Source: Luteibacter jiangsuensis (GTDB lineage Bacteria > Pseudomonadota > Gammaproteobacteria > Xanthomonadales > Rhodanobacteraceae). From it: a stretch of 64,000 bases of DNA. A program made the position numbers and the translations under genes. Below the pieces are notes generated by a model. It saw nothing but the letters and a program-made list of their open reading frames with translations, made no database searches and was not told the DNA's origin. Location of the stretch: assembly GCF_030812295.1 (NCBI RefSeq), contig NZ_JAUSSK010000001.1:62001-126000 (forward strand), written 5' to 3'. Shown piece by piece: positions 9,570-32,055 of the stretch (position 1 is the stretch's first letter; every line of letters begins with the position of its first letter).

Positions 9570-9599
9570 GGTCCGGCTCAGTAGCTACCGAGCCGGACC
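9570..9599. terminator. Hairpin at the convergent SDR/GH35 junction
   Basis: A perfect 10-bp stem, GGTCCGGCTC/GAGCCGGACC, with a 10-base loop. It overlaps the last codons and stop of the GH35 gene. There is no T run on either side, so it may act through Rho or RNA stability rather than as an intrinsic terminator. Confidence 0.35.
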
Positions 9600-11170
9600 T
9601 TGAGGAGCACGGGCTTGTCCGTGAAGTTGAGCCCGTAGTCGGTCTCGTCGCCGTTCCACCAGCGGATCGATTTCCACCGGCCCTCGACATAGCTGCCTTC
9701 CTCCACGCGCAGCAGCTGGCCGCGACGTCCGTCCGCATGGTCGCGGCCGAACTCGACGCGTGCGTCGAAGCCGGCCACCAGGTACTCGTCCGCGCCGAGC
9801 GGCACGAAGAGCACGTGCCCGGTCGCGTCGGGCGTGCCCGGCAGTTCAGCGGGCGCATCGCCCCAGCGGGGTGCCCCGTAGGAGACATCGGCGTGCCAGT
9901 GGTTATCCAGTTCGATGGTTCGCTTCGGCTGCCCGCGTTGTTCCACGGAAGCACGCAGCGTACCCCGATAGGCGGCGGCCGCGACCTGCTCATTGATCGA
10001 GTCCACGAGCGCGAAATTGCGCGCATGCGCCTGGGTGGCCTTGCGGCGCTCCGGTGTGTCGGGATCGTTGTCGACGCCGAAGACGGAGAAGCCGACGCCG
10101 CCGTTCGCCAGCACATGGAACAGGTAGGGCGCGTTGCCGGCGTCGTAGCCGGTCTCGGAGATCCATGGCGGATTGTCGGCGCGCGTGTACTGGCCCACCA
10201 CCTTGGTGAACTCGTTGTAGTCGGTGCTGTAGAGGTCGGTGCCGATGAGGTCGATGTGCGGTGCGCTGGCTCTCCACAGGTCCAGGACGTTCCACGTGGC
10301 GCCGCCACTGGGATAATCGTTCCCGGGAAGGTGCTTGCCCTTGTAGCGCAGCCAGGTGTTGACGTACATCGGCAGCGGATACGCTGCCTTGCCGGCAGCC
10401 GCCACCTGGTCGATGTATCGCGCGATCCCATAGGCGTTGAACTGCTCGTCGGCGTCCGCCCCGAATACGTCCGTCCATGTCTTGCCGGCCGGCTTGCCGA
10501 GCGCCTTCGCCAGGTCGGAGGGCACGTTTCCAAGGAAGGCTTCTTCGGCGGCGGGCGAGTGGTCGCGAACCGTGCCGATGGTGCCCGGCTCGTTTTCCAC
10601 CTGCACCATGATCACGGTATGGCGATCGCCATCGATGCGCTCGATATGCGCCATCAACGCGGCGAACGCGGCCTTGTCGGCTTCCAGGTTGGAGGTGGCG
10701 TGGGTCGAGAGGTCGTCGACCGGCTGGCCGTGCTCGTCCAGCACGCGCGGGTAGCGGGCGGGATCGGACTTGATCCATTCCGGAACGTAATGCATCTGTC
10801 CGTTCTTCCAGCTGCCGAACCACAAGATGACCAGGCGCAGTCCGTGTTCCCGTGCGCCTTCGACCAGCGCGTCGACGTGGCGGGTGTCGAAGCGGCCCCG
10901 GGCCGGTTCGAACTGTTCCCAGTAGACCGGCGCTTCCAGCGTGTTCGGATGGAGGGCCAGCACGTCGTTCCATACGCCCGGCAGCATGGCTGGCCAGGCG
11001 CTGGAATTGTGCAACTGGGCCGCGAGCACCGTGTAGGGCCGGCCGTCCACGAGCAGGGCGTGGCGGCCCTGCTCGTGGACGACCCTCGGCAGGGACGTGG
11101 CGGCGCGCGCCGCCGACGACGCGGCGACGGCCAACCACAGCATCGCGACCAGGAAAAGCAACCGCCTCAA
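9578..11170 (-). CDS. Secreted GH35 beta-galactosidase (DUF5597 type)
   Basis: A 530-residue protein. A clear signal peptide covers residues 1-24 (MRRLLFLVAMLWLAVAAS, cleavage after ARA). A GH35-type TIM barrel follows: the acid/base Glu sits in VQVENEPG (E194) and the probable nucleophile Glu in WISETGYD (E339). The C-terminal part is beta-rich, as in DUF5597 relatives. It should remove terminal beta-galactose in the periplasm or outside the cell. The start is a TTG whose bases overlap the TonB-receptor stop (TTGA, 11167-11170), so it is translationally coupled to the receptor. An internal ATG at codon 10 would break the signal peptide. Confidence 0.85.
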   Translation of the reverse strand: MRRLLFLVAMLWLAVAASSAARAATSLPRVVHEQGRHALLVDGRPYTVLAAQLHNSSAWPAMLPGVWNDVLALHPNTLEAPVYWEQFEPARGRFDTRHVDALVEGAREHGLRLVILWFGSWKNGQMHYVPEWIKSDPARYPRVLDEHGQPVDDLSTHATSNLEADKAAFAALMAHIERIDGDRHTVIMVQVENEPGTIGTVRDHSPAAEEAFLGNVPSDLAKALGKPAGKTWTDVFGADADEQFNAYGIARYIDQVAAAGKAAYPLPMYVNTWLRYKGKHLPGNDYPSGGATWNVLDLWRASAPHIDLIGTDLYSTDYNEFTKVVGQYTRADNPPWISETGYDAGNAPYLFHVLANGGVGFSVFGVDNDPDTPERRKATQAHARNFALVDSINEQVAAAAYRGTLRASVEQRGQPKRTIELDNHWHADVSYGAPRWGDAPAELPGTPDATGHVLFVPLGADEYLVAGFDARVEFGRDHADGRRGQLLRVEEGSYVEGRWKSIRWWNGDETDYGLNFTDKPVLLKVRLGSY

Positions 11171-14067
11171 AACGACACCGTCGCGCGCATCCAGTAGAAG
11201 CGGCCCAGCAAGTCGTAAGTGGCCACGTCGGTATTCGCGTTGGTCGTGTTGTTCGCGTAGTACAACGGCGGCTGCTTGTCGGTGAGGTTGTCCACGCCCA
11301 GCTCCAGCTTCGTGTGCCAGGATTCGACGTTATAGCCCACCTGCACGTTGTGGTAGACGTACGCGCCGATCTTGCGCTCGACACCGGCCTGGTCGTAGTC
11401 GGCGGAGAGTCCCTGGCGGAGATCCGCGTTGCCGATCTGGCTGCGGCCCACGTAGCGCAGGCGCCACGATGCGCTCCAGTCGCCCCGGGACCAGTTCAAC
11501 GTGCCCAGTGCGCGCCAGCGGGGGAAGTTGCCATAGCTGTAGGTGAAGATGCCCGCGTTATGGATCACGACCGAGCTGGGATCGGTGGTGTCGGGATTGA
11601 TGTCGTAACGCTTCATGTAGGTGCCGTTGAGGCTGGCGGTGAAGCGTCCGTAGCGGGTCTCGGGCAGACGATAGGTCGCGGCGAAGTCGGTACCGGCGGC
11701 CCAGAGCTTGCCCAGGTTCACGGTGGGCTCGGCCACGTAGTTGATCGTGCCGTTGCCATTGCGATGGATCAGTGCGCAGAAGGCGCTGGAGGGATTGGCA
11801 TAGCACTGGTTGAGCACGGTCTGCGCGGAAACCGTGGAGATCGTGTCCTTCAGGTTGATCTTCCAGCTGTCGACGCTGAACGACAGGCCTTCCAGCCAGT
11901 GTGGGTCGTAGACCAGGCCGATGTCGTATGAACGGCCCGTCTCCGGTTTCAGCTGGTAGCCGGCCACTTCCGATCCGGACGCCTTGCCCGATATCTGGCC
12001 ATCCGCCTGGCGATAGCTGCCATCGGTGGGCACGTTGGCACAGGCGACATCGTGACCGCCGGTGTAGCCGTTGCAGGGATCGTTCACCGTGGCGGCGTCG
12101 CCGGCCACGCCCGCATAGAGTTCACTGGTGTTCGGTGCGCGGAACACCTCCGACACCGTGCCGCGCAGGAGCAGGTCTTCCACGGGACGCCATTCCAGCG
12201 ACACCTTGCTGTTCGTGCTGCTGCCCACGGTGCTGTAGTCGGACCAGCGCGTGCCCACGGTGAGGTTGAGCGAGCGCACGCCGGGCAGGTTGGCCAGCAA
12301 GGGGATCAGGGTTTCGGCGTAGGCCTCCTTCACGTTGAAGCGTCCGGCCAGGGTGGATGCGCAATACTCGATGACGCCGCAAAGGCCGTTTTCGTCCGCT
12401 GTCCACAAGGGATCGGCGCTCGTGGACGTGCTCTCCTTGCGATACGACAGCCCCGTGGCGAGGCTCACCGTGCCCGCCGGAAGGTCGAACAGGTCGCCGT
12501 TGGCGTTGGCCTCCAGCTGTTTCACGGTGTAGACGCTGCCCACCGAGGGATTCACCACCATCGATTGCAGGTTGGACAGGCCGGATGGATCGTTGATGTT
12601 GAAGATGTTCAGTGGCGTGCAGCCGGCGATCGCGTTGCCGGCCGTGCCGCAACGCACCGTGCCATCCGTATCCATGAAGGATGGGCCGACAGCCTGGTTG
12701 AACTTCGCGTAATCGAGGAATCCATAGTTGATCGAATCCTGTCGCACGCGCCCATAGTTGATCGAGGTGTCCCATTGCCATGAGCTGTCGCCGAAACTTC
12801 CGCGCAGGCCGGGATTCACCTGGAGGTTGTACGTGTTGTATTGGTATCGCCGGTTGCCCAGCACGGTGAGGCGCGTATTCAGGTCGTTGGTGGACGTACC
12901 CGTGCCGCGGTCGGTGCCGAAGTCCACGCCGAAGGGGTTGTAATAGCTGCTGGCCGAAGCGAGGAAGTTGTCGCCATTGGCGAAGATCGGTATCGGGGCG
13001 ATCACCGACGAGGATTTCGTCTTGCTGAAATAGCTGTTGACGTAGGCCTGTACGTAGTCGTTGAACTTGTAGTGGCCGAGCAGGAACGCGTTGGTACGCT
13101 TCTGCGGTGTTTGCAGCAGGTTATATGGCTGGTAGTTGTACGAGTCCGAGCCGGTGTAGCAATGGAAATCGCCCGGGCCCGTGGCGCCGGTCACGCCGGG
13201 GTTGAGGGTGACGCGCGAGCAGCCGTTCGTGCCGGCCAACGCCTTGGAGGCGGCCGAACCGTCGTTGAAGTTGACCGAGCCGGTCGGCGTGGCCGACGAG
13301 CCTTGTTTCACCGGGGCGCCGTCGATCAGGTACAGGGCGTCCTTGGAGTAATTGCGCGCATCGGCCGAGACGGCGTCGATGTCGCTGTAGGACAGGCCGG
13401 CGATCACGCCGTAGTCCTTGCCGGTATGGCCGGCGGTCAACGAGAAGTTCCGGCGATTGCCGTCGCTGCGCTTGCTGGTGCCGAAGTCGCTGGAGATCTG
13501 TACTCCGTCGAAATGGTCGCGCAGGATGAAGTTGACCACGCCCCCGATCGCATCGGAACCGTAGATCGCGGAAGCACCGTCGCTGAGCACCTCGATGCGA
13601 TCGATCATGTTCGCCGGAATGGCGTTCACGTCGTTGTACGCGAGGCGGATGCCGTTGACGAGCACGAGGGTGCGTTTCTCGCCGAGGCCACGCAGCGAGA
13701 CGGTGGAGGCGCCCGTGCCGCCGCCGTTGTTGGTGTTGGGATTGGTGGCGTTGCCCGCGATCGAGGGCAGTTCCTGTACCAGGTCGCCGAGCGTGGCCTT
13801 GCCGGTGGCCTCGATGGCCGCGCGATCGAGGGTGACCACGGGGTTGGCCGTCTCCACGTCCACGCGGCGGATGCGCGAACCGGTGACGGTGATGCCTTCC
13901 AGGTCCTTGGCCTTGCTCGCTTCAGCGGCGTCGCCGCCGGCAGCGTCCTGCGCGTGCAGTGTTCCGGCACCGCTGATGAGACCGATGAGGAGGGTTGCAC
14001 GTACGGCGTGACCCAGCACGTGGCGGCGGGGCGTGTGGTCGGGCGAATCGCTGTGGCGCTGGTGCAT
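11167..14067 (-). CDS. TonB-dependent outer-membrane receptor
   Basis: A 966-residue receptor of the large carbohydrate/peptide type. The signal peptide has a polar N-terminus and hydrophobic core (VRATLLIGLISGAGTLHA, cleaved near residue 40). The plug domain begins ITVTGSRIRRVDVETANPV, with LGDLVQELPSIAGN and the plug signature DRIEVLSDGASAIYGSDAIG. A 22-strand barrel follows, ending in an aromatic residue (ATVSF), as outer-membrane proteins do. The ATG at 14067 has GAGGGA upstream and was chosen over one 20 codons earlier. It is coupled to the GH35 gene, which points to import of a galactose- or arabinose-bearing glycan or glycopeptide. Confidence 0.92.
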   Translation of the reverse strand: MHQRHSDSPDHTPRRHVLGHAVRATLLIGLISGAGTLHAQDAAGGDAAEASKAKDLEGITVTGSRIRRVDVETANPVVTLDRAAIEATGKATLGDLVQELPSIAGNATNPNTNNGGGTGASTVSLRGLGEKRTLVLVNGIRLAYNDVNAIPANMIDRIEVLSDGASAIYGSDAIGGVVNFILRDHFDGVQISSDFGTSKRSDGNRRNFSLTAGHTGKDYGVIAGLSYSDIDAVSADARNYSKDALYLIDGAPVKQGSSATPTGSVNFNDGSAASKALAGTNGCSRVTLNPGVTGATGPGDFHCYTGSDSYNYQPYNLLQTPQKRTNAFLLGHYKFNDYVQAYVNSYFSKTKSSSVIAPIPIFANGDNFLASASSYYNPFGVDFGTDRGTGTSTNDLNTRLTVLGNRRYQYNTYNLQVNPGLRGSFGDSSWQWDTSINYGRVRQDSINYGFLDYAKFNQAVGPSFMDTDGTVRCGTAGNAIAGCTPLNIFNINDPSGLSNLQSMVVNPSVGSVYTVKQLEANANGDLFDLPAGTVSLATGLSYRKESTSTSADPLWTADENGLCGVIEYCASTLAGRFNVKEAYAETLIPLLANLPGVRSLNLTVGTRWSDYSTVGSSTNSKVSLEWRPVEDLLLRGTVSEVFRAPNTSELYAGVAGDAATVNDPCNGYTGGHDVACANVPTDGSYRQADGQISGKASGSEVAGYQLKPETGRSYDIGLVYDPHWLEGLSFSVDSWKINLKDTISTVSAQTVLNQCYANPSSAFCALIHRNGNGTINYVAEPTVNLGKLWAAGTDFAATYRLPETRYGRFTASLNGTYMKRYDINPDTTDPSSVVIHNAGIFTYSYGNFPRWRALGTLNWSRGDWSASWRLRYVGRSQIGNADLRQGLSADYDQAGVERKIGAYVYHNVQVGYNVESWHTKLELGVDNLTDKQPPLYYANNTTNANTDVATYDLLGRFYWMRATVSF

Positions 14068-14178
14068 GGCTTCCCTCGTTGACGGTGGGCGTACGAAAGA
14101 CGGGCGAGTTCGCTCGGCGCTCGGCATGGGACCGATCGCTCAGGGGCGCGGCGGGACCGCGGCCTCGGGAGTTGGAAC

Positions 14179-14202
14179 GCGATCGCGCGGCTGCGCGATC
14201 GC
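14179..14202 (-). terminator. Strong hairpin just after the GH127 gene
   Basis: A perfect 10-bp stem, GCGATCGCGC/GCGCGATCGC, with a 4-base loop, 6 bases after the GH127 stop codon and upstream of the TonB receptor. It lacks a U run. It may stabilise the upstream message or reduce read-through into the receptor. Confidence 0.4.
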
Positions 14203-14208
14203 AGGGGC

Positions 14209-16146
14209 TCAGCTCGTGCCGTCGGCAGGCATGTCGGCCTGCCAATAGACGGCGTAGCGTTCACCCTGGATCTGGTGAAGCGGGATCACGGACAGCATGC
14301 CGTCGCGCGTGTTCGCGCGGAACGTCAGCGGCTCGTCGGCCGGCGTCAGCCAGTCGAGTCGGTCCGGTCCGTCCATGGCGATGCGGGGTGCGGCTTGGGC
14401 TTTCGGTTCGGGCGATGGGCTCGCGTCGTACTTGCCGTACTGCTGGTCGTGCGTCAGCCCCTTGCCGCCGAGCCGGGCGGCGAGCACCAGCGGACCGTAG
14501 AGCACGGCCTGGAGGCTGTCGTCGCCCGGCAACGGCATGGCATGCAGGCGCATCGGCAGGGTGATGGTGAGGCGATCGCCGGTTTGCCAGTGGCGCTTGA
14601 GGGTCAGGTAGCTTCCCGGCGAGGCGAACACATCCAGTGGCGTGCCGTTCAACGCAACGCTGGCGCCTGGCGCGACCCAGGAAGGAATGCGCAGATTCAC
14701 CGTCAGTTCGCGAGGATCGTCGAGCGTGAACTCGAACGCGCTGGAGGGTTCCTTCGGGAACTCGGTGCGTTGGACCACGCGCAAGCCGCGTTCGGGCCAG
14801 CGCAGTTCCGAGGCGATGTAGAGGTTCACGTGCAGTTCGTCGCCGTCATGCGCGTAGATGGCGTCGTTGAAGCGGGCGAATTCCTCGGCGCCGGACCCGG
14901 TGCAGCACCAGAACGAATCGGTGGGCGAGTTGTAGAACTTCGCGCCGCCCGGCTGCAGCGAGTAGTAGTAGAGCTTCATGCCCTTGGCATCCTGGGTGCC
15001 AAGGCGTGCGTTGTAGAGCGTGCGCTCGTAATAGTCGAACGCACGCGGATCGCCATTCCACGCGTAGACATGGCGGGTCAGCTTCAACAGGTTGTAGGCG
15101 ACGCAGCACTCGGCGGCATACAGTCCGAGTTGGCCCTTGAGGTCGCCGGGGCCGGTCTTCCAGAATTCGTCGTTGCTGGAACCGCCGGTGGCATAACATC
15201 GGTTCTGCGTCACCGTTTCCCAGAAATACTCGGCGATGCGGCGATAACGGGGTTCGCCCGTCAGTTCGTAGCGGCGCGCGGCGCCGAGAATCTTCGGGAT
15301 CTGCGTGTTGCTATGCAGACCCTTCAACTCGTCGCGGTGCGCGGCCAGCGGCTCGAAAAGCGATGCCTGGTCGAAACGATGCGCGGCATCCAGGTAACGG
15401 CTGTTGCCGGTGATGGCATACAGGTCGTACATCGACTCGTTCATGCCGCCGTATTCGGTCTTCAGGATGTGCGCGATCTCCGTATCGGAGAACCCGTTCA
15501 GCCAGCGCACGGTCCAGTTGCCGATACCGGTGGCGACATCCAGCGCCTGGCGGTTGCCGGCGAGCCGGTACATGTCGAGCATGCCGGCCTGGATCTTGTG
15601 GATGGTGTAGAACGGCGCCCAGACCTTTTCGCCGCGGCTCAGGCGGTCGAAGAAGCTTTCGGGGAACGCGCTGAGGTAACCGTTGGATCGTTGGCAGGAA
15701 GCGAGGATGCCAACCAGTTCATCGCCACGCGCTTTCAGGACGGCATCGCCCTGGGCGGCCCACGCCAACGCCGCCGCGGAAAGGTAATGGCCGCCACTGA
15801 AGTGGCCACGCAGTTCGCAGTCGGGTTTCTCCCAGCCACCGAGCGGGGCGGCGTTGGTCGGCTTGCCGGCTTGCACGAGGAAGGCCCGCGCGAGCCGGTC
15901 CACCGGCAGGCTGTGCAGGTAGTCCAGGTTGATCGTGGCGGCGCGGCGGAAATCGCTGTCCAGGAGTGTCACACGGTCGAGCGCGAAGGCTTGCATCCGG
16001 TTGACAGGCTTGTCGCGCACGGCGGCGGTCGCGGTGCCGGCCGGATCGGCGGTGTCGAAGGCGCGCAACGGCGTCGCCAACAGGGCGCCGGCAAGCGTGG
16101 ATGCGCTCGCCTTCAGGAAACGCCTTCTCCGATCGACACCTTGCAT
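14209..16146 (-). CDS. GH127 beta-L-arabinofuranosidase (DUF1680), Tat-exported
   Basis: A 645-residue protein. A Tat signal leads (RRRRFLKASASTLAGALLA, residues 6-24), then an (alpha/alpha)6 barrel and beta domains. The residues that bind zinc and act in catalysis in HypBA1 (E322, E338, C340, C417, C418) have clear counterparts: E327 (NDEFW), E346 and C348 (AAECC), and C414/C415 (SFWCCTGSG). The family releases beta-L-arabinofuranose, classically from the hydroxyproline-linked arabinooligosaccharides of extensin. The ATG at 16146 gives the Tat motif at the right place. It lies in the same strand block as GH35, the receptor and the hydroxyproline genes. Confidence 0.9.
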   Translation of the reverse strand: MQGVDRRRRFLKASASTLAGALLATPLRAFDTADPAGTATAAVRDKPVNRMQAFALDRVTLLDSDFRRAATINLDYLHSLPVDRLARAFLVQAGKPTNAAPLGGWEKPDCELRGHFSGGHYLSAAALAWAAQGDAVLKARGDELVGILASCQRSNGYLSAFPESFFDRLSRGEKVWAPFYTIHKIQAGMLDMYRLAGNRQALDVATGIGNWTVRWLNGFSDTEIAHILKTEYGGMNESMYDLYAITGNSRYLDAAHRFDQASLFEPLAAHRDELKGLHSNTQIPKILGAARRYELTGEPRYRRIAEYFWETVTQNRCYATGGSSNDEFWKTGPGDLKGQLGLYAAECCVAYNLLKLTRHVYAWNGDPRAFDYYERTLYNARLGTQDAKGMKLYYYSLQPGGAKFYNSPTDSFWCCTGSGAEEFARFNDAIYAHDGDELHVNLYIASELRWPERGLRVVQRTEFPKEPSSAFEFTLDDPRELTVNLRIPSWVAPGASVALNGTPLDVFASPGSYLTLKRHWQTGDRLTITLPMRLHAMPLPGDDSLQAVLYGPLVLAARLGGKGLTHDQQYGKYDASPSPEPKAQAAPRIAMDGPDRLDWLTPADEPLTFRANTRDGMLSVIPLHQIQGERYAVYWQADMPADGTS

Positions 16147-16223
16147 GCTTCTCCCCAACGTGATGACGCACATCCCCCGATGCGCGCTTTCATCGTGCGG
16201 TCACACGACCGTGCTGTCTTGTG

Positions 16224-18620
16224 TCATTTGCGGATGCTCGATGCGGAATCCCGCATAGTCGACACGATGCGCAGGATCTGTCCCGGTTTTCCGTGCAGGC
16301 GGATGGCATCGCCACGCCGGTCGGCTTCCGCGACGGTTTCGCCGTCGATGTGAACGTGGGGACCCGCACCGCGCAGGCTGATCCAGATGGCTTTGGGATT
16401 CGCGTCAGCCGGCAAGGTGACCGTTGCGGACAGCTGCGAACCGTCCTTCCTCAGCGTGACGCCGCAGCGCCCCCAGCGCGTGGGAGCGGCGTCCAGACTC
16501 ACCGGCTCGCCGGTATCGAGCCACGCGTGGGGAATCGCACGGGCCAGCCACAGCGTCTCGCCCGCGCTGTCGTCGAAGACGAAGGCCCAGCGCAGCAGCA
16601 GCGGGATCGTCATCTGCGCGGGCATGCAGAACAACGGCATGCCGCCGGTGATGTCGGCGACCTCGCCGGCCGTCCAGCTGCCGGGCGTATGCGCATGGTG
16701 GCGATGCGCATAAAGAAACAGCAGGTACTCGTCGACGCGGCCCAGGCGCAACAGTTGCTGTGCATAGCCATAGGAGATGAAACCAAGGATATCCCTGCTT
16801 TTCGGGTCGACGGGCCCGATGTTCGCGACCACGCCGAGGGTGGTGGCGCCATGGCCGCGCATGCCATCGATGACCACGTTGGCGAGGTCGTCGGATAGCA
16901 CGTCGGCTTGCAGGAGCTCGGCGTAGACCCGGTGTGGCCATTGTTGCTCGCTGGGCTTTTCCTGCGCGAGCGATTCGCGGAAGGTGAGCCTGACGCCCGG
17001 CAACGGCGGAACGTAGGGCGGTTTCAGGTCGTGGCGGATGTTGGCACGCACGCTTTCTTCCACGCGCCGGGCCAATGCTTCGGCGTGCGTCTTCCACATC
17101 GAGGCGGCATTTGCAGCGTTCGCCTCGACATCGGGCCAGACGGCGGCGAGGTCGAGCAGGCCACGGGCGGCGAGTGCGCTGTTGGCGTAGTAGGGTTTCC
17201 ACCAGAGTGCCGGATCGGGAAACAGACAGGCATCCGATTCGTTCCAGCCGTGGATCAGTCCGTGTCCGGGATCGCTGGCGGGAAGGCGCAGGCTCTCGTC
17301 ATGCAATTCCAGCAGCGTCGCGACCGTGGCCTCGATCTTCATGCGGTGCTTGCGCAGGAGGGACGCGTCGCTCGTGTAACGCAGGTAGCGCGCCAGGAGC
17401 GAAAGGGTCAGGCCGAACTGCCCCGTCTCCGCGCCGCGCATGTTGATCATGCCGTCGTCCTGGACGAAGTCGCGGAAATAGCCGTCCAGCACGGCGGCGG
17501 CCTGCTCGAAACGGCCCCATTCCAGGTTGGCGTAGAGCGAACTGGTGAAGGTGTCCTGGAAGCCGTCGTATTCGTTGCCGTAGTAGTCGCGGTCGACAGC
17601 CCCGTACTTGGGGTAGGTGCCATCCGGACGAACCACCAGTTCCCGGGCGAAGGCATGGGCGGCCATGTCGGACCATCCCGCCACGGGGACACGCACGGGC
17701 GGGAGGTCGGTCAGCTGGGCATGCCAGTAGTCGTGGAAGCGCAGCAGCGCCGCGTAGAAGGCATCGGCCTGCGGCGGTTCTCGGCGCGGGGGATAGGCGG
17801 GGTAGCTGTGTCCGTAGACCACGCGGGTGAAACGGCCTTGTTCGACCAGCGCGGTCCGGTGCCAGGTCTGCACGACGAAACGGTCGTTGGCGTCCACGTC
17901 GGCGAACACGAGCACGTCGTACCAGCGGCCGTCGTCCAGCGGCACGACCTTGTGCACCGCGGGCAGCCAGCCGCCCAGCAAGCCCTCGCGCCGGCGCGCG
18001 ACCTTCTTCGGGTCGTGCAGATCGGCGAAGACCTGGTCCGCGTGATACGTGCGCGTGCTTCCGGAGGTATAGACGGGCATGGTGTCCGCGCATTGGCGGG
18101 TGCCGACGAAGCTGGTCCAGGGCAGGCGGCCGTAGTAGTTCTCGGGGTCCAGCGACGATGCCGCCGGCGGCGCGGCCAGGCGTACCTGCGTCTCGTCCGG
18201 TTCGCCCCGTGCAAGGAGATGCTCCGCGAGGAGGTCTGCCCCGGCCAGTGCGACATCGGCCAGTTTCATGCCGAAGTAGGGTTGCGCGGCTTCGTCGTAG
18301 GTGGCTTCGGTGCGCTTGCCGATCACGCAGGCCTGCGTGCCATCGTGGAGCACGATCGGGCCGTCCGGGTGGGACAGGTCCTCGCCCACCTTCCAGTCGC
18401 GCCCTTGCAGGCGAAAACCGGGCAGGCCGACGAGGTGCTCGCGCGGAACGCCGGCAAGCGGAACACGCACAGGCAACGTGGTCCCGCGAACCGCCGAGGT
18501 GGGGTGCGGCGCGAACGCTTCCGCCGTCAGCGGACCCAGGCTGGCGGCGGCGCCCGTTGCCGCCAGCACACGGAGGAAGTGGCGCCGGTCCATGGCAGTC
18601 TCATCGCCGCGCTCACTCAT
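16224..18620 (-). CDS. Tat-exported six-hairpin glycosidase-like protein, family unassigned
   Basis: About 798 residues. A Tat signal (MDRRHFLRVLAATGAAASLG) starts at residue 10. The N-terminal half is beta-rich (about 40-330). The middle has the repeating helix pairs of an (alpha/alpha)6 barrel (about 340-690) with acidic motifs YGNEYDGFQDTFTSSLY and LIHGWNESDACLFPDP, as in GH78/GH63/GH142-like clans. A short beta tail closes it. The ATG at 18620 overlaps the permease stop by 8 bases; the ATG at 18593, directly before the Tat motif, is an alternative. I cannot name the family; a glycosidase acting on arabinose- or rhamnose-containing plant glycans is an inference from fold and neighbours. 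Confidence 0.75.
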   Translation of the reverse strand: MSERGDETAMDRRHFLRVLAATGAAASLGPLTAEAFAPHPTSAVRGTTLPVRVPLAGVPREHLVGLPGFRLQGRDWKVGEDLSHPDGPIVLHDGTQACVIGKRTEATYDEAAQPYFGMKLADVALAGADLLAEHLLARGEPDETQVRLAAPPAASSLDPENYYGRLPWTSFVGTRQCADTMPVYTSGSTRTYHADQVFADLHDPKKVARRREGLLGGWLPAVHKVVPLDDGRWYDVLVFADVDANDRFVVQTWHRTALVEQGRFTRVVYGHSYPAYPPRREPPQADAFYAALLRFHDYWHAQLTDLPPVRVPVAGWSDMAAHAFARELVVRPDGTYPKYGAVDRDYYGNEYDGFQDTFTSSLYANLEWGRFEQAAAVLDGYFRDFVQDDGMINMRGAETGQFGLTLSLLARYLRYTSDASLLRKHRMKIEATVATLLELHDESLRLPASDPGHGLIHGWNESDACLFPDPALWWKPYYANSALAARGLLDLAAVWPDVEANAANAASMWKTHAEALARRVEESVRANIRHDLKPPYVPPLPGVRLTFRESLAQEKPSEQQWPHRVYAELLQADVLSDDLANVVIDGMRGHGATTLGVVANIGPVDPKSRDILGFISYGYAQQLLRLGRVDEYLLFLYAHRHHAHTPGSWTAGEVADITGGMPLFCMPAQMTIPLLLRWAFVFDDSAGETLWLARAIPHAWLDTGEPVSLDAAPTRWGRCGVTLRKDGSQLSATVTLPADANPKAIWISLRGAGPHVHIDGETVAEADRRGDAIRLHGKPGQILRIVSTMRDSASSIRK

Positions 18621-23756: not shown

Positions 23757-23867
23757 CGAACACCCCTTCACGAATATGACACCCCGATGCTCACCTGTGT
23801 GGCCGCCGGGCGCTAGAAGCGATTGCCCGGCGACCATGCGGAATTGGGCACAATGGATGCGGAGGTC

Positions 23868-25070: not shown

Positions 25071-26662
25071 CGGGAGACTCCCACGTCGGCATCGGTCCAT
25101 CGGCCGTCGATGCGTCGTTGAACCGGTCCTGGATTGCGATCGCGCAGTTCCGGCGGCAGCAACGCGTCGGGCACGTTGTCGTAGCTGTGCAGCGCGGCGA
25201 AGCGATGGATCGCGGTGGGCATGCCCACCGCGGTGAAGCCGGGATGGCCCGTCGCGGGGTAGGGGCCACCATGATTCATCGCCGGGCTGACCGCCACGCC
25301 CGTGGGCATGCGGTTGGCGATGAGGCGGCCCACGCGCTTGCGCAAGGGTGGCGCGACCGCTTGCCAGAGCGCGTCGTCGCTGCCGTCGGCGGCGCGGTAC
25401 AGCGTCGCCGTGAGGTTGCCCTCGAAGGCTTCGGCGATCGCCACCATCGTGGTCTCGTCCCCGCCGCTGACGAGCAGGCTCACGGGACCGAACGCTTCCG
25501 CCTGCAGGGCCTCGCGATGGGCGAGGAAGGTCGCGGCGTCGACATGGAGCAAGGTGGGTTCGAAGCGGTAGCCCTGGCCGTCACCCTTGCTTCCGCCGGC
25601 CAGCACGCCGGCACCGGCGTCGACGAGATCCCGCACGGCGCGCGCGAGGTTCTCTTGCACGCCACGGGAGAACAGCGGACGCGGCGTCGCCGACGCGAAC
25701 TGTTTCGTGGCGGTGGCGACGAAGGTGTCGCCGGCCTCGCCCTGCGCGACCACGACGATGCCGGGGTTGGTGCAGAACTGGCCGCTGCCCATGGTGCACG
25801 AGGCGAAGAACTCCTGCGCGAGCGACTCCGCGCGTTCCGCCAACGCACCGGGCAACAGGAACACAGGGTTGACGCTGGAAAGTTCCGCGTACATCGGAAC
25901 GCCGGCCACATCGGCGGCGACCTTCAGGGCGAGGCCGCCTGCGCGGCTACCCGTGAAGCCAATCGCGCCCAGCCTCGCGTCACCGGCCAGGGCCACGCCC
26001 AGCGCATTGTCGAAGTGGTAGAGCATCTGCACCGACGCGGCGGGCAGGCCGGCATCGTGCAACGCCTTGTGCGCCAGTTCGGCGAGGCGGCGGCTGGTCG
26101 CCGGATGCGACGGATGGGCCTTGGCGATCACCGGGTTGCGCGCGGCGATGGCCGAGGCGAAGTCGCTGCCGGCGATGGCGTTGAAGGCGAAGGGGAAGTT
26201 GTTCGGACCGAACACCAGTACCGGCTTGACCAGCGGTGCGCGGTGCGCGCGCAGGCCGGTGGCGGTGTCGATGACCGGCTCGGTCCACGCGTAGTCGCGA
26301 ACGGCACGTGCCGCCTGCCGAAGCTGCCCGCTCGTGCGCGGCAATTCCACCGAGCGCAGGCGTGGCTCGGCAGGCAGCGCGGTTTCCTCCGCGGCCAGCG
26401 CGACCAGCGTGTCCGTCTCCTCTTCGATCGCCGTGGCGTACCGTTCGAGGAAATCGGCGATGCGCGCCGGAGGTGTCGCCGCCAGTTCCACCGCGACCGA
26501 GGAAGCGGCGGCGAGCGCGGCTTCCAGATCGGCCGCGCCGCTGATGGGAAACGCGGGGCCGATCGGCTCGGCCCGCGTCGGGTCTTCCGCGCGGAACGCG
26601 CCGGCCGCATCGAGCGATGCGCACCAGCGGCCGCCGAGCAGCAGTTTCGCATCGGCCGGCAT
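25067..26662 (-). CDS. 2,5-dioxovalerate (alpha-ketoglutarate semialdehyde) dehydrogenase
   Basis: A 531-residue aldehyde dehydrogenase, longer than the usual 490, as in the KGSADH type III group tied to hydroxyproline and sugar-acid pathways. The catalytic Asn region is GPNNFPF (N154), the general-base Glu is in YAELSSVNP (E260) and the catalytic Cys in GSGQFCTNPG (C297). It oxidises 2-oxoglutarate semialdehyde to 2-oxoglutarate with NAD(P)+, the last step of hydroxyproline breakdown. It is 3 bases downstream of the dapA-like gene and overlaps the M24 peptidase gene. Confidence 0.92.
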   Translation of the reverse strand: MPADAKLLLGGRWCASLDAAGAFRAEDPTRAEPIGPAFPISGAADLEAALAAASSVAVELAATPPARIADFLERYATAIEEETDTLVALAAEETALPAEPRLRSVELPRTSGQLRQAARAVRDYAWTEPVIDTATGLRAHRAPLVKPVLVFGPNNFPFAFNAIAGSDFASAIAARNPVIAKAHPSHPATSRRLAELAHKALHDAGLPAASVQMLYHFDNALGVALAGDARLGAIGFTGSRAGGLALKVAADVAGVPMYAELSSVNPVFLLPGALAERAESLAQEFFASCTMGSGQFCTNPGIVVVAQGEAGDTFVATATKQFASATPRPLFSRGVQENLARAVRDLVDAGAGVLAGGSKGDGQGYRFEPTLLHVDAATFLAHREALQAEAFGPVSLLVSGGDETTMVAIAEAFEGNLTATLYRAADGSDDALWQAVAPPLRKRVGRLIANRMPTGVAVSPAMNHGGPYPATGHPGFTAVGMPTAIHRFAALHSYDNVPDALLPPELRDRNPGPVQRRIDGRWTDADVGVSR

Positions 26663-26665
26663 GAC

Positions 26666-27571
26666 TCAGAGCTCCGGCTTCGTGGCGATGGCGTGGTCGA
26701 TCACGGCCAGCGCGGCCTCGCGTTCGGCGCCCGTGACCGTCAAGCGCGGCGCGCGTACGGTTTCGCTGCCCATGCCGGTCTTGGCCTGCACGAGCTTGAT
26801 CAGCTGCACGAAGGTGGGCACCGTGTCGAGACGGAGCAATGGCAGGAACCATGCGTACAGCGATTCAGCCGCGCGGGGTCCGCCGTCGCGCGCGAGTTCG
26901 AACAGCTTCACCGATTCCTTCGGATACGCGTTGACCAGGCCCGCGATCCAGCCCACCGCACCCATGCTCACGCCTTCGACGAGGGCATCGTCCATGCCGA
27001 CAAGGAGGTCGAGGCGATCGCCGAGCAGGGCACGGATGGCGGCGAAACGGCGCACGTCGCCGGAGGACTCCTTCACCGCCTGCAGGTTGGGGAACTGCGC
27101 GGCGAGTTCGGCGATCTGCGCGGGCGCGAAGTCGGTCTTGTAGGCGACCGGGTTGTTGTAAAGCATGCAGGGCAGGTCGGTGGCCGCGATGACGGCCTTC
27201 ACATGCGCGCTCATTTCACGCCAGTCGGTGGAATACACATACGGTGGCAGCACCATCAAGCCGGCGCAGCCGATGGCCTTGGCTTCCTTCGCGAGGCGCA
27301 CGGCTTCATCGGTCGAGAGCGACGCGATGCCGGGAATCACCGGCGCACGGCCGTCGAGTGCCTTGACCAGGGTGCGCAGGATGTCGGTCTTCTCCTCGAA
27401 GCTCAGCGTGGCCGCTTCGCCGAGGGAACCGAGGGGCACGATGCCCTTGCACCCGGCGTCGATCATCTGCAACGCATGGCTGGCGAGGAAGGCGTGGTCG
27501 ACCTTGCCATCGGCGGTGAAGGGCGTGGTGACGGCCGGCAGGACGCCGCGCCAGAAAGTGGCCTTGCTCAT
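26666..27571 (-). CDS. Pyrroline-4-hydroxy-2-carboxylate deaminase (DHDPS family)
   Basis: A 301-residue DapA-superfamily TIM barrel. It has the Schiff-base lysine in LQAVKESSGD (K167), the catalytic Tyr in MLYNNP (Y138) and the phosphate/carboxylate loop GSLGEAATLS (48-57). Context identifies it as the deaminase that turns delta-1-pyrroline-4-hydroxy-2-carboxylate into 2-oxoglutarate semialdehyde and ammonia, rather than a lysine-pathway enzyme. It follows the D-hydroxyproline dehydrogenase subunit with an ATGA overlap (27568-27571) and precedes the semialdehyde dehydrogenase. Confidence 0.9.
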   Translation of the reverse strand: MSKATFWRGVLPAVTTPFTADGKVDHAFLASHALQMIDAGCKGIVPLGSLGEAATLSFEEKTDILRTLVKALDGRAPVIPGIASLSTDEAVRLAKEAKAIGCAGLMVLPPYVYSTDWREMSAHVKAVIAATDLPCMLYNNPVAYKTDFAPAQIAELAAQFPNLQAVKESSGDVRRFAAIRALLGDRLDLLVGMDDALVEGVSMGAVGWIAGLVNAYPKESVKLFELARDGGPRAAESLYAWFLPLLRLDTVPTFVQLIKLVQAKTGMGSETVRAPRLTVTGAEREAALAVIDHAIATKPEL

Positions 27572-28863
27572 GGTGTGTAGCCTCTCGTATCGCTGACGGA
27601 AGAAAGAACGGGTTCGCCCAGCGTGGCCAGGCGAGTGGGAAAGAGGGGCGGCCGCATGCCGCCGCGCGGGCCATGCCCGAGTTCGGCGAGCGCGCCGCCG
27701 CAGATGCGGCCCTGGCAGGCGCCCATGCCGCAGCGCGTGGCGAGCTTCGCTTCGCGGGCGTCCGTGTGCGTGCGCACGGCGCCGAGGGAGACGTCTTCGC
27801 ACCGGCAGATCGTCGTATCGTCGTTCGCGAGCCCGCGCACGTCGTCGCGGAGCGCGAAGTGTTGGCGTAGCGAGGCGGCGAAGGCGCGCGCGCGATCGCG
27901 CCGCTGCACCAGCGCTCGGGGCACCGCCGCCCCGGCGGCGGCCAGCCCGGCGATGTGGCCTTCCACCCTGGCGCAGTCGATTCCGCCGATACCGCAGGCT
28001 TCGCCGGCGGCGAACACGCGCGGTTGGCTCGTGGCCTGCCACGGGCCGACCTGTACACGCGCATGTGCGCCTTCCGGCTCCAGCGCGCAACCGAGCAATT
28101 GGGCCAGTTCCACCTGTGGCAGCAGGCCGTAGCCCACCGCCAGCAGATCGCACTCGATGCGTTCGTCACCCTGGCCGCCGCGTACATGCGCGCCGCTGAC
28201 GCCATGGTCGCCCTCGGCGGTGGTCACGATGCTGCCGGTCCGATAAGGGACGCGCGCGAGTTCGAGTCGCAGCCGTGCCGCTTGCGCGAGCTTACCCGGC
28301 CAACGCCAGAGACCGGCGGCGAAGCGGTGCACGGCAGATGCGCCGGCCTGCTCGTGGATGCCCACGACGTGCGCGCCGTGCCGCTGCGCGGTCGCCGCGG
28401 CCGCGAACAGCAGCGGCCCGCTGCCGGCGATGAGCACACGCTTGCCGCGCAAGGGCCAGCCTTGCTTGGCCAGTGCCTGTAGACCGCCAGCACCGGTGAC
28501 GCCAGGCAGGGTCCAGCCAGGGAAGGGCAGCAGGAGCTCGCGTGCGCCGGTGGCGAGTACCAGCGCGCCATAGGCAAGATGGAAGCCGCGTCGCGCATCC
28601 TGCAGGAGCAGTCGCTCCGGCTCGACCGCGACGACCTGCGTTCCTTCGAGGTACGTGACGTTGGCATTTCCGGCGGCGGCGCGGATCGCATCCATCGCCA
28701 CACGCGGTTGGCCGTGCAGCGCATCGTGCCGCCATACCTGACCGCCTGCGCGTGGCTGGCTATCGATCAGCACCACCCGCTTGCCGTGGCTCGCGGCGGC
28801 CTCCGCCGCGGCGAGGCCCGCCGGTCCGGCGCCGACGACGACGATGTCGCAGGCGTCAACCAT
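27568..28863 (-). CDS. cis-4-hydroxy-D-proline dehydrogenase, FAD/NAD-binding subunit
   Basis: A 431-residue flavoprotein of the HcnB/opine-oxidase-A type. The GAGPAG loop is at residues 11-16, a second nucleotide fold begins KRVLIAGSGPLL, and a BFD-like [2Fe-2S] site lies at the C-terminus (CRCED near 353-355 and CGMGACQGRIC near 378-388). With the small ferredoxin-like protein and the D-amino-acid-oxidase-like subunit next door it forms the three-part membrane-linked dehydrogenase known from Pseudomonas hydroxyproline operons. It overlaps the ferredoxin-like gene by 8 bases and the deaminase gene by 4. Confidence 0.88.
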   Translation of the reverse strand: MVDACDIVVVGAGPAGLAAAEAAASHGKRVVLIDSQPRAGGQVWRHDALHGQPRVAMDAIRAAAGNANVTYLEGTQVVAVEPERLLLQDARRGFHLAYGALVLATGARELLLPFPGWTLPGVTGAGGLQALAKQGWPLRGKRVLIAGSGPLLFAAAATAQRHGAHVVGIHEQAGASAVHRFAAGLWRWPGKLAQAARLRLELARVPYRTGSIVTTAEGDHGVSGAHVRGGQGDERIECDLLAVGYGLLPQVELAQLLGCALEPEGAHARVQVGPWQATSQPRVFAAGEACGIGGIDCARVEGHIAGLAAAGAAVPRALVQRRDRARAFAASLRQHFALRDDVRGLANDDTTICRCEDVSLGAVRTHTDAREAKLATRCGMGACQGRICGGALAELGHGPRGGMRPPLFPTRLATLGEPVLSSVSDTRGYTP

Positions 28864-29104
28864 CGGTTTCCACCCGCATGCCAGGATTGACGACGCGCTG
28901 GCAGGCGCGCTGCTGGGCCACGCCGTCGATGCGCACGCGGCATTCGAAGCACACGCCCATGCCGCACAGCGGCGCGCGCGGCTCGCCTGTCACGGAATGG
29001 CGGAACGGTTGGCCAACGAGCGCGATCGCCGTCGCGACGGATATGCCTGCCGGCACGTGCACGCGAAGTCCGTTGATGGTGAGTCGCACGGTGCTCATCT
29101 TCAT
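28856..29104 (-). CDS. cis-4-hydroxy-D-proline dehydrogenase, [2Fe-2S] subunit
   Basis: An 82-residue ferredoxin-like protein (Fer2_4). Cluster cysteines are C47, C52, C55 and C68 (LCGMGVCFECRV, RACQRV), the plant-type spacing C-x4-C-x2-C-x12-C. It is the small gamma subunit of the heterotrimeric dehydrogenase and should pass electrons between the flavoprotein subunits. It starts inside the stop of the upstream oxidase (ATGA at 29101-29104) and ends inside the downstream subunit, so all three are made together. An ATG two codons later is possible. Confidence 0.9.
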   Translation of the reverse strand: MKMSTVRLTINGLRVHVPAGISVATAIALVGQPFRHSVTGEPRAPLCGMGVCFECRVRIDGVAQQRACQRVVNPGMRVETDG

Positions 29105-30198
29105 GGCTGCACCCGTGAGGGATCGTAGGGGGTCGGATCGATCGCGGGAGCACGGCCGAGGATCTGGTCGACGACCACGCGCGCGCTACCCAGTGAAGTC
29201 GTCACGCCCAGCCCTTCGTGCGCGGCTGCCACCCAGACGTCGTCGCGGCCTGGTGCACGGCCAAGATAGGGCAAGCCGTCCACGCTCACCGGACGAAAAC
29301 CCGTCCACAGGCGAATCGCGTCCAGTTCGCGCAGTCGTGGCAGGAAGTGGAAGCTCCGCTCCAGCATGCGCCGGATCATTTCCATCGAAACGCCGGTGTC
29401 GACGGCGTCGTACTCTCGCGACGAACCGATCAGGATCTGTCCGGTAGGCCGTGGCTGCACGTTGAATGCGACACTGGCGGCATCGCCGCCATGTGCACTG
29501 TCCGCATAGCCGAGTTCCAGCAACTGGTGCCGGATCACGCCGGGATAGCGATCGGTGATCACCAGATGTCCCTTGCGCAACCGTACGGGCAATCCTGGCA
29601 GCAAGCTCGGCAACGCACCGCCGGTCGCGAGCAACACGGGACCATGCAGTCGCTGGCCACCATGCAGGAGCACGCCGCGGTCGTCGAGGCGGAAGACCGC
29701 ATCGGCGTGATACGTGGCACCCCGCGTGATCGCCCGGTCGACCCAATGACGGGCGACGGCCGGTGGAAACACTACCGCTTCGTTCGCGACACGCATGCCA
29801 CCGGCGAGGCCAGGTGCGAGCGAGGGCTCAAGGCGGTAAAGCTCCCGCGCATCGACCCGCTCGGCGGCCACGCCCGAGGCGGCAAGCCGCGCGATCTTTT
29901 CCGGAATACGCGCGAACTCTTCATCGTTGCTGGCCACCCACAGGGTTCCGCAGCGGCTGAACTCCGCCTGTGGCAGGTTCGCGAACGCTTCCCAGAGGCC
30001 TAGCGAGTAATGCGCCAGCGCGAGTTCCGCGGGGTCGTCGTCCATGGCCACGAGGTGACCCATCGCCGCGGCGGTCGCGCCGCCCCCGACGACGCCCGGT
30101 TCCACGATCGCGATGCGCATGCCCTGCATGGTGGCGTAGTCGGCGCATGCCGCGCCAACGATGCCGGCACCGACGATGATCAGGTCGTGACCGCTCAC
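29101..30198 (-). CDS. cis-4-hydroxy-D-proline dehydrogenase, DAO-type FAD subunit
   Basis: A 365-residue glycine/D-amino-acid-oxidase-type flavoprotein (DAO superfamily). The FAD-binding [13 protein letters not shown] loop is at about residues 10-22. [21 protein letters not shown] and [17 protein letters not shown] are family-typical substrate-domain motifs. It oxidises cis-4-hydroxy-D-proline, the epimerase product, to the pyrroline. The start is GTG, sharing bases with the epimerase stop (GTGA, 30195-30198). The three subunit genes lie in the order DAO, ferredoxin, HcnB type. Confidence 0.9.
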
Positions 30199-31136
30199 CC
30201 CGCGCCGATACCCCAGGCCAGCGGATCGGCCTCGTCGATCAGGATCTGCCCCTTCATGGTGACGTGCGCGCTACCGGTGATGCGGGGCAGGACGCCCGAC
30301 GCACCGGGCTGGAAGGTGACCTCGAACACGCTGCCGAGGATGCCGGCCTGCCGCCAGACGGCGCCCACGGCCAGCTTTCCGTCGGCGGCCAGGCAGGCGA
30401 CCTTGGCACTGGTACCGGTGCCGCACGGCGAGCGGTCGTAGGCCATGCCGGGACAGAGCACGAAGTTGCGGCCGTCGGCGTCGGGTTGCCCGGGCGCCGC
30501 GTTCAATTCGATATGGTCGATCTCCGCGCCGTCCGCGCCGGTGATGCCCTCGCGTTCCAGCGCCGCGCGGATGGCCTCCGTATAGACGGTCAGCGCGCGT
30601 TGATGGTCGAGGGTCAGCGGCAGCGGCGTGTCGGCCGTGATGAAGAACCAGTTGCCACCCCAGGCGACATCGCCGACGACACTGCCGTAGCCCGGTACCT
30701 CAAGGCGAACATCCTTGCGGTGGCGATAACTTTCCACGTTGTCGATCGACACGCGGCCATCGTCCAGCAGTTCGATGCCGACGGTACCCACGGGCGTCTC
30801 GAGGCGGTGGCGGCCCGGACCGATGCGTCCGAGGTGCTGCAACGTCCGGATCGTGCCGATGGTGCCGTGGCCGCACATGCCGAGATAGCCGACGTTGTTG
30901 AAGAAAATCACCCCGGCGCAGGCCTCGGGATCGGCTGGCGGGACGAGCAGGGCGCCCACCATCGTGTCCGAGCCACGCGGCTCGCAGGCGATCGCCTGGC
31001 GCCAGCGATCGTGCTCCGCGCGCATGAGCCGCCGACGTTCGGCGAGGGAGCCATTGCCCAGATCGGGGAAGCCGGACAGGACGACGCGTGTGGGTTCGCC
31101 GCCGGTATGCGAATCGATGAAGTCGAGGGTGTGCAT
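30195..31136 (-). CDS. 4-hydroxyproline 2-epimerase
   Basis: A 313-residue member of the proline racemase superfamily. Both catalytic cysteines are present, C88 in GMCGHGTIG and C238 in [10 protein letters not shown]. That pair marks racemase/epimerase activity; trans-3-hydroxyproline dehydratases carry Thr at the second site. The N-terminus [14 protein letters not shown] matches Pseudomonas epimerases. It converts trans-4-hydroxy-L-proline to cis-4-hydroxy-D-proline, the entry step. It is first in the minus-strand operon. An ATG at 31145 (three codons upstream) is an equally possible start. The promoter must lie in the 200-base region shared with the AraC regulator. Confidence 0.93.
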
Positions 31137-31252
31137 GGGGTTCATGCTCGCCGGGCAGTGCCTCGGCGGGATAGAAACCTTTGCCGGATTCGGATGCGGA
31201 ATTCGGCATACCTTCTGAAGGCGGCATGATCGCCGCGGCGACACCGCCGTAC

Positions 31253-31283
31253 TTGCCATCCGACCGCCCATCGGCTTTATGAT
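31253..31283 (+). promoter_or_regulatory. Possible sigma-70 promoter of the PAS-AraC regulator
   Basis: TTGCCA at 31253-31258 and TATGAT at 31278-31283 resemble -35 and -10 hexamers, with 19 bases between them (17 if TTTATG is taken as the -10). It lies 68 bases upstream of the regulator start. The hydroxyproline operon promoter should lie on the other strand in the same region, but no convincing hexamer pair was found there. Confidence 0.3.
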
Positions 31284-31350
31284 GCGGTGCGGCAGCGAAA
31301 TATACCGTTGCCCATGCCGTCGCCGCTCGCCCCGGAGGAGCCCCGCGCCC

Positions 31351-32055
31351 GTGAAGATTTCCGCCGATGAACTCGAGCCGCTCTTCGATGCGCTTCCCGA
31401 TGTGGTGTTCTTCGTCAAGGACACCCAGGGCCGCTACACGCACGCCAATCTGACCCTGGTCCGCCGGTTGGGTCTGAAGCATCGCAGCGACATCATCGGC
31501 AAGGACGTGACCGAGCTGTTCCCGACGACGATGGGCGGTTCCTACGCGGCCCAGGATCGTCGCGTGCTGGCCGGCGAGCTGATCGAGAACCAGCTCGAAG
31601 TGCATATCTTCAACAACCGCGCGCCGGGTTGGTGCCTGACCTGCAAGCGACCGTTGATCGCGCGCGGCGAGGTGCGCGGCGTCATCGGCATTTCGCGAGA
31701 CCTGGGCCAGCCGGATGGCAGGCATCCCACCTATGACCGCCTGCGCCGCGTGCTTGCGCACATGCAGGAACACTATGCGGACAACGTGCGCGTGCATACG
31801 CTGGCGACGCTCGCGGGCTTGTCGGTCGCGCAACTGGAACGGCATTTCCGCCGGGTTTTCCAGCTCACGCCGCAACAGGTGTTGACCAAGGTACGCATCG
31901 AGAGCGCGATGCGCCTGCTCGGCGGCGAGGACAGCATCGCGGCCATCGGCATGGCATGCGGTTTCGTCGATCAGAGCGCCTTCGCACGGCAATTCAAGGC
32001 GACGGTGGGGATGACGCCAAGCGCTTATCGCACGATGGTGACGGCTGAGCGTTGA
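31351..32055 (+). CDS. PAS-domain AraC-family activator of the hydroxyproline operon
   Basis: A 234-residue regulator. An N-terminal PAS domain covers about 5-115 ([22 protein letters not shown], then [11 protein letters not shown]), followed by an AraC double helix-turn-helix covering about 135-230 ([21 protein letters not shown] and [20 protein letters not shown]). The GTG at 31351 has GGAGGAG about 10 bases upstream; an ATG at 31279 would add 24 unusual Arg/Pro-rich residues. It is divergent from the epimerase, the usual place for the hydroxyproline regulator in Pseudomonas. PAS input rather than an AraC cupin suggests it senses a small metabolite such as hydroxyproline or a pyrroline. Target assignment is inferred from position. 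Confidence 0.85.

Follow-up and report, generated by a model that had tools for sequence, protein, structure and literature searches.

Why does a complete operon for the catabolism of trans-4-hydroxy-L-proline (Hyp) in Luteibacter jiangsuensis adjoin genes for a TonB-dependent receptor, glycosidases, peptidases and an amino acid permease? The locus is located at 9578-32055 of a 64,000-nucleotide stretch of DNA (the window), which is part of a 4.32-Mb genome (7 contigs) of the genus Luteibacter, family Rhodanobacteraceae. Extensins and related proteins represent a pool of plant carbon and nitrogen that is hard to digest. In the literature examined, no complete bacterial route from such a glycoprotein to central metabolism was found laid out. 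An initial annotation had read the block as a system for the use of extensin glycopeptides. The comparative, sequence-based analysis presented here indicates that the block is very probably one utilization locus for plant (or green-algal) hydroxyproline-rich glycoproteins (HRGPs), with Hyp as the main nutrient.

Conserved linkage of sugar and hydroxyproline genes

Fourteen minus-strand genes run from 31424 down to 9578 with intergenic gaps of -34 to +81 nt; for the gap measurements, the 2Fe-2S gene and the start of the DHDPS-type lyase gene were placed by hand. They encode, in this order, a 4-Hyp epimerase, DAO, 2Fe-2S and Pyr_redox subunits, a DHDPS-type lyase, an aldehyde dehydrogenase, an M24 peptidase, two DUF885 proteins, an APC permease, a Tat-exported orphan protein named SixH here, a GH146-like enzyme, the TonB receptor and a GH35 enzyme, and the gene of a PAS-AraC regulator is divergent from the run (Table 1). 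All genes named in the initial annotation were found, in the order given there. Counts of internal promoter and terminator patterns in the block were not above the shuffled expectation (10 terminator-like sites versus 9.2 expected).

The family was represented by 197 genomes. Of these, 23 encode a GH146 with ≥60% identity (53 if every match is counted), 15 encode a full-length SixH (21 if every match at E 0.001 is counted), and 105 gave some match to the epimerase, whether strong or weak. The GH146 gene was located within 17 kb of the epimerase gene in 22 of the 24 Rhodanobacteraceae genomes holding it (the 23 mentioned and G457), the exceptions being G194, where the contigs are split, and G093, which has no epimerase. 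SixH was detected at E 1e-60 in 43 of 398 order-level genomes, or 44 with G127; in 41 of these 44 Xanthomonadales it lay within 30 kb of the epimerase, and in the other three the contigs were split. A region reaching 30 kb to each side of a gene makes up roughly 1.3% of a 4.5-Mb genome. Outside the family, GH146 was detected at E 1e-60 in 41 genomes, all of which were screened for the epimerase. After setting aside eight that are discussed below, the two genes were 19-45 kb apart in 27 of the remaining 33 and on different contigs in five. Within the genus of the window, the epimerase occurred in 4 of 19 genomes, and it is these four that also encode full-length SixH and a GH146 with ≥60% identity; a twentieth genome (G470), in which the epimerase was not sought, contained neither GH146 nor SixH.

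None of 16 open reading frames (ORFs) flanking the block in the window was found in Rhodanobacteraceae regions with the block and the epimerase, including three of the same genus; the 16 probably include ORFs that do not represent genes, and past the regulator the retrieved sequence often extended for only about 5-10 kb. The only matches of flanking ORFs elsewhere were short-chain dehydrogenase paralogues (29-36% identity at G093, G404, G355 and G359) and a pair of exonuclease and FGE-sulfatase genes in G355 and G283. As the flanks differ while the block persists, the linkage is very unlikely to be just inherited gene order. Rather than lying consistently away from the Hyp genes, the arabinofuranosidase gene, mostly together with those of SixH and the TonB receptor, is kept beside the Hyp operon in relatives.

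Xanthomonadaceae version of the locus

In genome G434 (genus-level group g58), a run of genes starts with GH146 (791 aa), a TonB receptor (75% identity to the window receptor), an S9 peptidase, GH43 (528 aa) and GH121 (1471 aa), continues with a second receptor, SixH (59% identity), GH35 (62%), a second S9 peptidase, APC (75%), two DUF885 proteins and M24, and ends in a full Hyp operon (aldehyde dehydrogenase, DHDPS, Pyr_redox, DAO, epimerase). Using a rough ORF caller, all genes were on one strand except a subtilase-like gene and a divergent AraC gene. The GH121 protein was 64% identical to that of G404, whose match to the beta-L-arabinobiosidase 6m5a scored 743 bits. In several Xanthomonadaceae loci, GH121 and GH43 genes accompany the same SixH, APC, DUF885, M24 and Hyp genes. 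Among seven fully mapped regions, GH121 was missing in G303, G208 and G400, and SixH in G303 and G208.

The enzymes XCV2724, XCV2728 and XCV2729 of Xanthomonas euvesicatoria degrade Ara4-Hyp stepwise; the constructs end at residues 791, 528 and 1452, a prolyl oligopeptidase gene lies beside the genes, and a PIP box is present in the promoter of the GH121 operon (PMC6085000). The gene lengths, the neighboring peptidase and a PIP-box pattern ~100 nt upstream of the GH121 gene in G434 match these data, although PIP-type patterns are frequent by chance (eight with 14-16 nt spacers in 60 kb of G434). Group g58 was assigned to Xanthomonas solely on the basis of the PIP box and of the lengths and order of the genes. 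A PIP box ahead of the Hyp operon was dropped as a candidate feature; it occurred only in G431 and G434 of 15 g58 genomes, with identical sequence, and the other genus represented by G404 showed an unrelated PIP-type match there. X. euvesicatoria cannot use arabinose, mutants with deleted HRGP enzymes remain pathogenic, and why the enzymes are retained was posed as a question (PMC6085000). By analogy with G434, the Hyp operon at the far end of the run offers an answer and may explain this retention.

Assignment of the glycosidases

The arabinofuranosidase had initially been filed under GH127 with all HypBA1-type residues. This family was rejected because the nearest sequence matches were GH146 enzymes: the scores were 326 bits with 5opj, which we take to be the GH146 enzyme BT0349, and 210 bits with Bll3HypBA1 (GH146), versus 96.5 bits with 4qjy, the best named GH127 chain, and 45 bits with 3wkw, presumably HypBA1. 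The structure 8k7y is likewise named GH146. By sequence, the protein is GH146-like rather than GH127. The residues stood: E355, C357, C423 and C424 of clan GH-P and the acid/base E336 were kept in the alignment, the roles in the zinc/cysteine site being those given in PMC10850190. The correction does not weaken the link to Hyp, since XeHypBA1 of X. euvesicatoria is a GH146 enzyme that predominantly hydrolyzes arabinofuranose (Araf) from Araf-beta1-Hyp (PMC10850190). The window protein is a predicted beta-L-arabinofuranosidase with Araf-Hyp as putative substrate; in a tree that contains no characterized enzyme, it falls into a separate clade together with its counterparts from the other Rhodanobacteraceae loci. 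GH146-like remnants were observed between SixH and the TonB receptor at G053:C1 138052-138174 and G068:C25 213645-213893, as if the gene were decaying there.

The start of the SixH gene lies within the end of the APC gene. SixH showed no sequence match to a named GH family: its profile retrieved no PDB chain at E 10, the single sequence only mitochondrial processing peptidase (E 0.32), and Pfam nothing significant except the Tat signal. The hhalign probabilities were 17% to GH146, 0.1% to GH121 and 2.4% to a DUF885 control, which does not support SixH as a divergent GH121 or GH146 (the GH121 sequences were crudely cut). A first structural model from 11 sequences had a poor mean pLDDT of 52.4, and a domain model was little better (59.0). 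These low-confidence models resemble (alpha/alpha)6 glycosidases, with several GH families tied at the top, Foldseek TM-scores of 0.13-0.19 in the top four rows, and no row at E 0.001 for the domain model; absence of a GH family from the match lists excludes nothing, and no family is claimed. SixH is tentatively a predicted (alpha/alpha)6 glycosidase. Of the initial description as a six-hairpin protein, the gene, Tat export and unassigned status held, and the hairpin fold is suggested by the low-confidence models without support from sequence. SixH and GH27 as mutual replacements were rejected, as both are present together in G052, G006, G106, G355 and G404.

The GH35 protein scored marginally below the cut-offs of Pfam (26.8 of 27 bits) and NCBIfam (472 of 500), and its call was upheld by matches to the solved beta-galactosidases 8faa (724.6 bits) and Bgl35A (435 bits). 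No paper on the origin of 8faa was found. GH35 and a GH27 alpha-galactosidase were each present in 7 of 26 Rhodanobacteraceae blocks; the GH27 proteins scanned, from four relatives (G052, G162, G006, G093) and one more in G355, were of the Melibiase_2 type. Extensin carries serine-linked alpha-galactose, which the presence of GH27 would fit. The genome of the window has a GH27 gene outside the block (G000:C1 519232-520035); some relatives hold one inside. A search of 12 genomes detected GH121 in four, each of them from Xanthomonadaceae. Compared with HRGP arabinoside clusters of the Bifidobacterium longum and Xanthomonas type, the window locus contains a gene for a putative clan GH-P beta-L-arabinofuranosidase and lacks GH121.

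Hydroxyproline operon and peptidase genes

The annotation of a complete Hyp operon with a divergent PAS-AraC regulator was confirmed in all components: the genes for the epimerase, the D-Hyp dehydrogenase subunits, the DHDPS-type deaminase and the semialdehyde dehydrogenase lie together. The PDB entry closest to the epimerase, 4juu, has been named X. campestris 4HypE (PMC4113996). The M24 protein consists of Creatinase_N and Peptidase_M24 and was closest to solved prolidases. Its translational coupling to the Hyp pathway, stated as a fact in the initial annotation, is plausible: the ORF was drawn from 25100, and an ATG near 25070 would overlap the stop codon of the aldehyde dehydrogenase gene. 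Both DUF885 proteins contain HE-x4-H plus PGH motifs, and their structural relatives are unnamed or termed lipoproteins. The motif and the position in the block suggest metallopeptidases for imino-peptides. Two such proteins were present as annotated; their description as secreted relies on N-termini read by eye.

Table 1. Features of the block in the window.
Feature	Position	Strand	Remarks
GH35 beta-galactosidase with DUF5597 domain	9578..11170	-	signal-peptide-like N-terminus by eye; best PDB match 8faa, 724.6 bits
TonB-dependent receptor	11167..14127	-	73-77% identical to receptor adjoining GH146 in Xanthomonadaceae G434, G250, G283
GH146-like predicted beta-L-arabinofuranosidase	14209..16173	-	Tat-like N-terminus by eye; E355, C357, C423, C424, acid/base E336
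SixH, Tat-exported orphan, predicted (alpha/alpha)6 glycosidase	16224..18620	-	start codon overlaps APC stop
APC-family amino acid permease	18613..20196	-	family match
DUF885 protein	20199..21962	-	secreted-looking N-terminus; HE-x4-H motif
DUF885 protein	21975..23837	-	HE-x4-H motif; relatives with known structure (3o0y, 3iuk, 3u24) have no function assigned
M24 peptidase, Xaa-Pro dipeptidase (prolidase) type	23868..25100	-	proline dipeptidase 4r60, 610 bits; likely start near 25070
Aldehyde dehydrogenase	25067..26662	-	alpha-ketoglutaric semialdehyde step, by context
DHDPS-superfamily lyase	26666..27565	-	Hyp pathway deaminase, by context; start approximate
Pyr_redox subunit, D-Hyp dehydrogenase	27568..28863	-	family match
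Small 2Fe-2S subunit, D-Hyp dehydrogenase	28856..29104	-	cysteine motif read by eye
DAO-type FAD subunit, D-Hyp dehydrogenase	29101..30198	-	family match
4-Hyp 2-epimerase	30195..31424	-	closest PDB match 4juu; true start probably near 31140
PAS-AraC regulator	31279..32055	+	divergent from operon; ORF start uncertain

Occurrence in Acidobacteriota and possible assembly of the locus

Full-length SixH was found in 3 of 297 Acidobacteriota genomes (8 with any match at E 1e-10), in two of the three beside Hyp genes. In a Bryobacteraceae metagenome-assembled genome (MAG; contig L157, 3253-19934), genes for DUF885, an outer membrane receptor, GH146, SixH (53%), and the DAO, Pyr_redox and DHDPS proteins of the Hyp pathway lie on one strand, with an S9/DPP-IV peptidase gene amid the block on the opposite strand and the epimerase on another contig. 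In G726, SixH adjoins DUF885, and a Hyp operon that includes the epimerase lies at a distance of 11-15 kb. In a further Acidobacteriota MAG (L178), a GH146 gene that appears to be split into two pieces is next to oppositely oriented Pyr_redox and DAO genes.

In 20 Rhodanobacteraceae Hyp-only operons, which were the stronger epimerase matches without GH146 and not a random draw, M24 was present in 11, DUF885 in 10 and a permease in 16; the corresponding numbers for 26 regions with the sugar module were 20, 25 and 25 (identity cut-offs of 60-70%, DUF885 at ≥60%, Hyp-only regions extending ~15 kb downstream). This looks like a layered assembly, in which Hyp catabolism was followed by the use of Hyp peptides and then of Hyp glycopeptides. 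In a GH146 tree of 77 rows, the Hyp-linked rows of Rhodanobacteraceae clustered separately from those of Xanthomonadaceae; unlinked rows were placed between the two clades, and L157 from Acidobacteriota belonged to neither. The tree was a quick one with SH-aLRT support only, a midpoint root and rows chosen from fetched regions; 16 named Rhodanobacteraceae rows (mostly of the same genomes) were left out, and one G434 row entered twice. By these separate clades, at least two GH146 lineages occur in Hyp loci, and GH146 seems to have joined them more than once. The GH146 of L182, a MAG labeled Rhodanobacteraceae, groups with a Granulicella (Acidobacteriota) row and had no other block genes in 22 kb; either horizontal transfer or a binning error would account for it.

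Neighboring genes

A tRNA-Leu (CAA) gene is located just past the regulator (32430-32514). No tRNA gene was found in 40 kb around the blocks of nine relatives with the same search that finds the tRNA-Leu of the window, which is thus not a shared insertion mark. Genes for cytochrome c maturation (CcmD, CcmF and a CcmH-type TPR protein) are present on the regulator side at 34353-39167. An exonuclease and FGE-sulfatase gene pair lies beside the block at 4849-8030; it also occurs in G355 and G283 (40-45% identity), several kb from the Hyp operon on the regulator side.

Proposed function and alternative explanations

The observed gene content, single-strand layout, conserved linkage and matches to characterized families are consistent with the following scheme, in which we infer which way transport runs, what SixH, GH35 and DUF885 act on, and that the genes are co-regulated. 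The TonB receptor would import Hyp-rich glycopeptides, from which exported GH146, SixH and GH35 (in some relatives also GH27, GH43 or GH121) would strip arabinose and galactose. Exported DUF885 proteins, with S9 peptidases in some relatives, may cleave the bared peptide, the APC permease may take up Hyp or small imino-peptides, and the M24 prolidase would liberate Hyp. The pathway from the epimerase to the aldehyde dehydrogenase would convert it to alpha-ketoglutarate under the PAS-AraC regulator. Glycopeptide use by the whole block, as initially proposed, is supported by the linkage and by the Ara4-Hyp enzyme counterparts in Xanthomonadaceae loci; the substrate should be broadened from extensin to HRGPs, among which the extensin type is the most likely.

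Several observations weigh against this assignment. The linked GH35 is of the beta-galactosidase type and a misfit to alpha-galactose on serine, and one of the 20 Hyp-only operons also has GH27 nearby. The window genome gave no GH121 match (E 1e-10), though Ara3/Ara4 chains would need removal. Its GH146 falls into a separate clade from the g58 protein equated with XeHypBA1, shares only 38% identity with it and is not its orthologue. Of the 41 genomes outside the family, four contained no epimerase at E 1e-40, and another four had nothing but a paralogue with 36-38% identity; in G440 the two genes are 1.76 Mb apart, and G093 has GH146 with GH27 and no epimerase. SixH and GH146 are not always paired: genomes of group g13 lack SixH, and the G053 and G068 blocks lack an intact GH146. 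Among Acidobacteriota, G726 showed no GH146 in the 36 kb examined, and G680 no Hyp genes in 30 kb, with SixH near three GH146-like genes (26-31%).

Use of the peptide as proposed is also compatible with arabinogalactan-type Hyp-glycoproteins or algal HRGPs, rather than extensins, as substrates, with GH146 trimming terminal beta-Araf and GH35 removing beta-galactose including Gal-Hyp. Bll3HypBA1 (GH146) acts on Araf-beta1,3-Araf of arabinogalactan proteins and arabinan (PMC10850190), and GH35 is present in 7 of 26 blocks; however, several Xanthomonadaceae versions carry GH121 and GH43 of the Ara4-Hyp type, and no galactanase for the arabinogalactan protein backbone was recognized among the scanned block proteins, so that we regard these substrates as unlikely. 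Another alternative assigns the sugar genes to the use of pectic arabinan or some other polysaccharide; inherited gene order would then account for their position next to an unrelated Hyp operon. The best PDB match of the window enzyme, 5opj (presumably BT0349), is a GH146 enzyme characterized on arabinan oligosaccharides (PMC10850190), and Hyp operons without sugar genes are common (20 fetched). This reading is nevertheless very unlikely given that the flanks vary while the block stays, that at least two GH146 lineages occur in Hyp loci, that peptidase genes sit between the two halves, and that SixH lies beside Hyp genes in a second phylum. Plant signal peptides also carry O-arabinosylated Hyp (PMC8012813), and the locus might mainly degrade such signals with nutrition being secondary. 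The full route to alpha-ketoglutarate points to nutrition, and the data do not discriminate between extensin fragments and short signal peptides; a signal-degrading role is the least probable of the readings considered.

If the block acts as an HRGP utilization locus, it provides the unassigned families SixH and DUF885 with a substrate that can be tested, and its enzymes could serve as tools for removing Hyp-linked glycans. The evidence is evenly balanced on the wider view that the Hyp-glycoprotein pathway is one conserved locus across Xanthomonadales, reduced in Acidobacteriota, that SixH founds a new Hyp-glycan-specific GH family, and that Hyp, not arabinose, is why Xanthomonas keeps HRGP glycosidases. 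A single locus joining both halves was announced as new; in agreement, no paper linking them was found, with subscription journals mostly outside the coverage. The accessible sections of the nearest papers on HRGP sugars and Hyp, PMC6085000 and PMC4454575, contain no link between the halves.

Comparison with known systems

Proteobacterial 4-hydroxyproline operons share the set of epimerase, dehydrogenase, deaminase and aldehyde dehydrogenase with the window locus; they differ in that glycosidases or a TonB receptor are not described for them in the accessible sections, and in the regulator, which is PAS-AraC in the window and not the GntR-type HypR (PMC4113996, PMC5343134). The hypBA1-hypBA2-hypAA cluster of B. 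longum with its ABC transporter likewise removes beta-arabino-oligosaccharides from HRGPs, but takes the arabinose, and the available text describes no Hyp pathway (PMC7263609, PMC5928203). XCV2724/2728/2729 of X. euvesicatoria (XeHypBA1/AA/BA2) are similar in GH146, in the proposed substrate and, in G434-type loci, in a TonB receptor 73-77% identical to that of the window. In contrast, the publication describes three enzymes and, in the accessible sections, makes no connection to Hyp catabolism (PMC6085000); GH121 is without a match in the window genome, whose GH146 is of another lineage.

A further proteobacterial 4-hydroxyproline operon is the lhp operon of Pseudomonas. Among the characterized enzymes, BT0349 and Bll3HypBA1 (GH146) share the sequence family and the zinc-cysteine catalytic site with the window protein, which differs in belonging to its own Rhodanobacteraceae clade.

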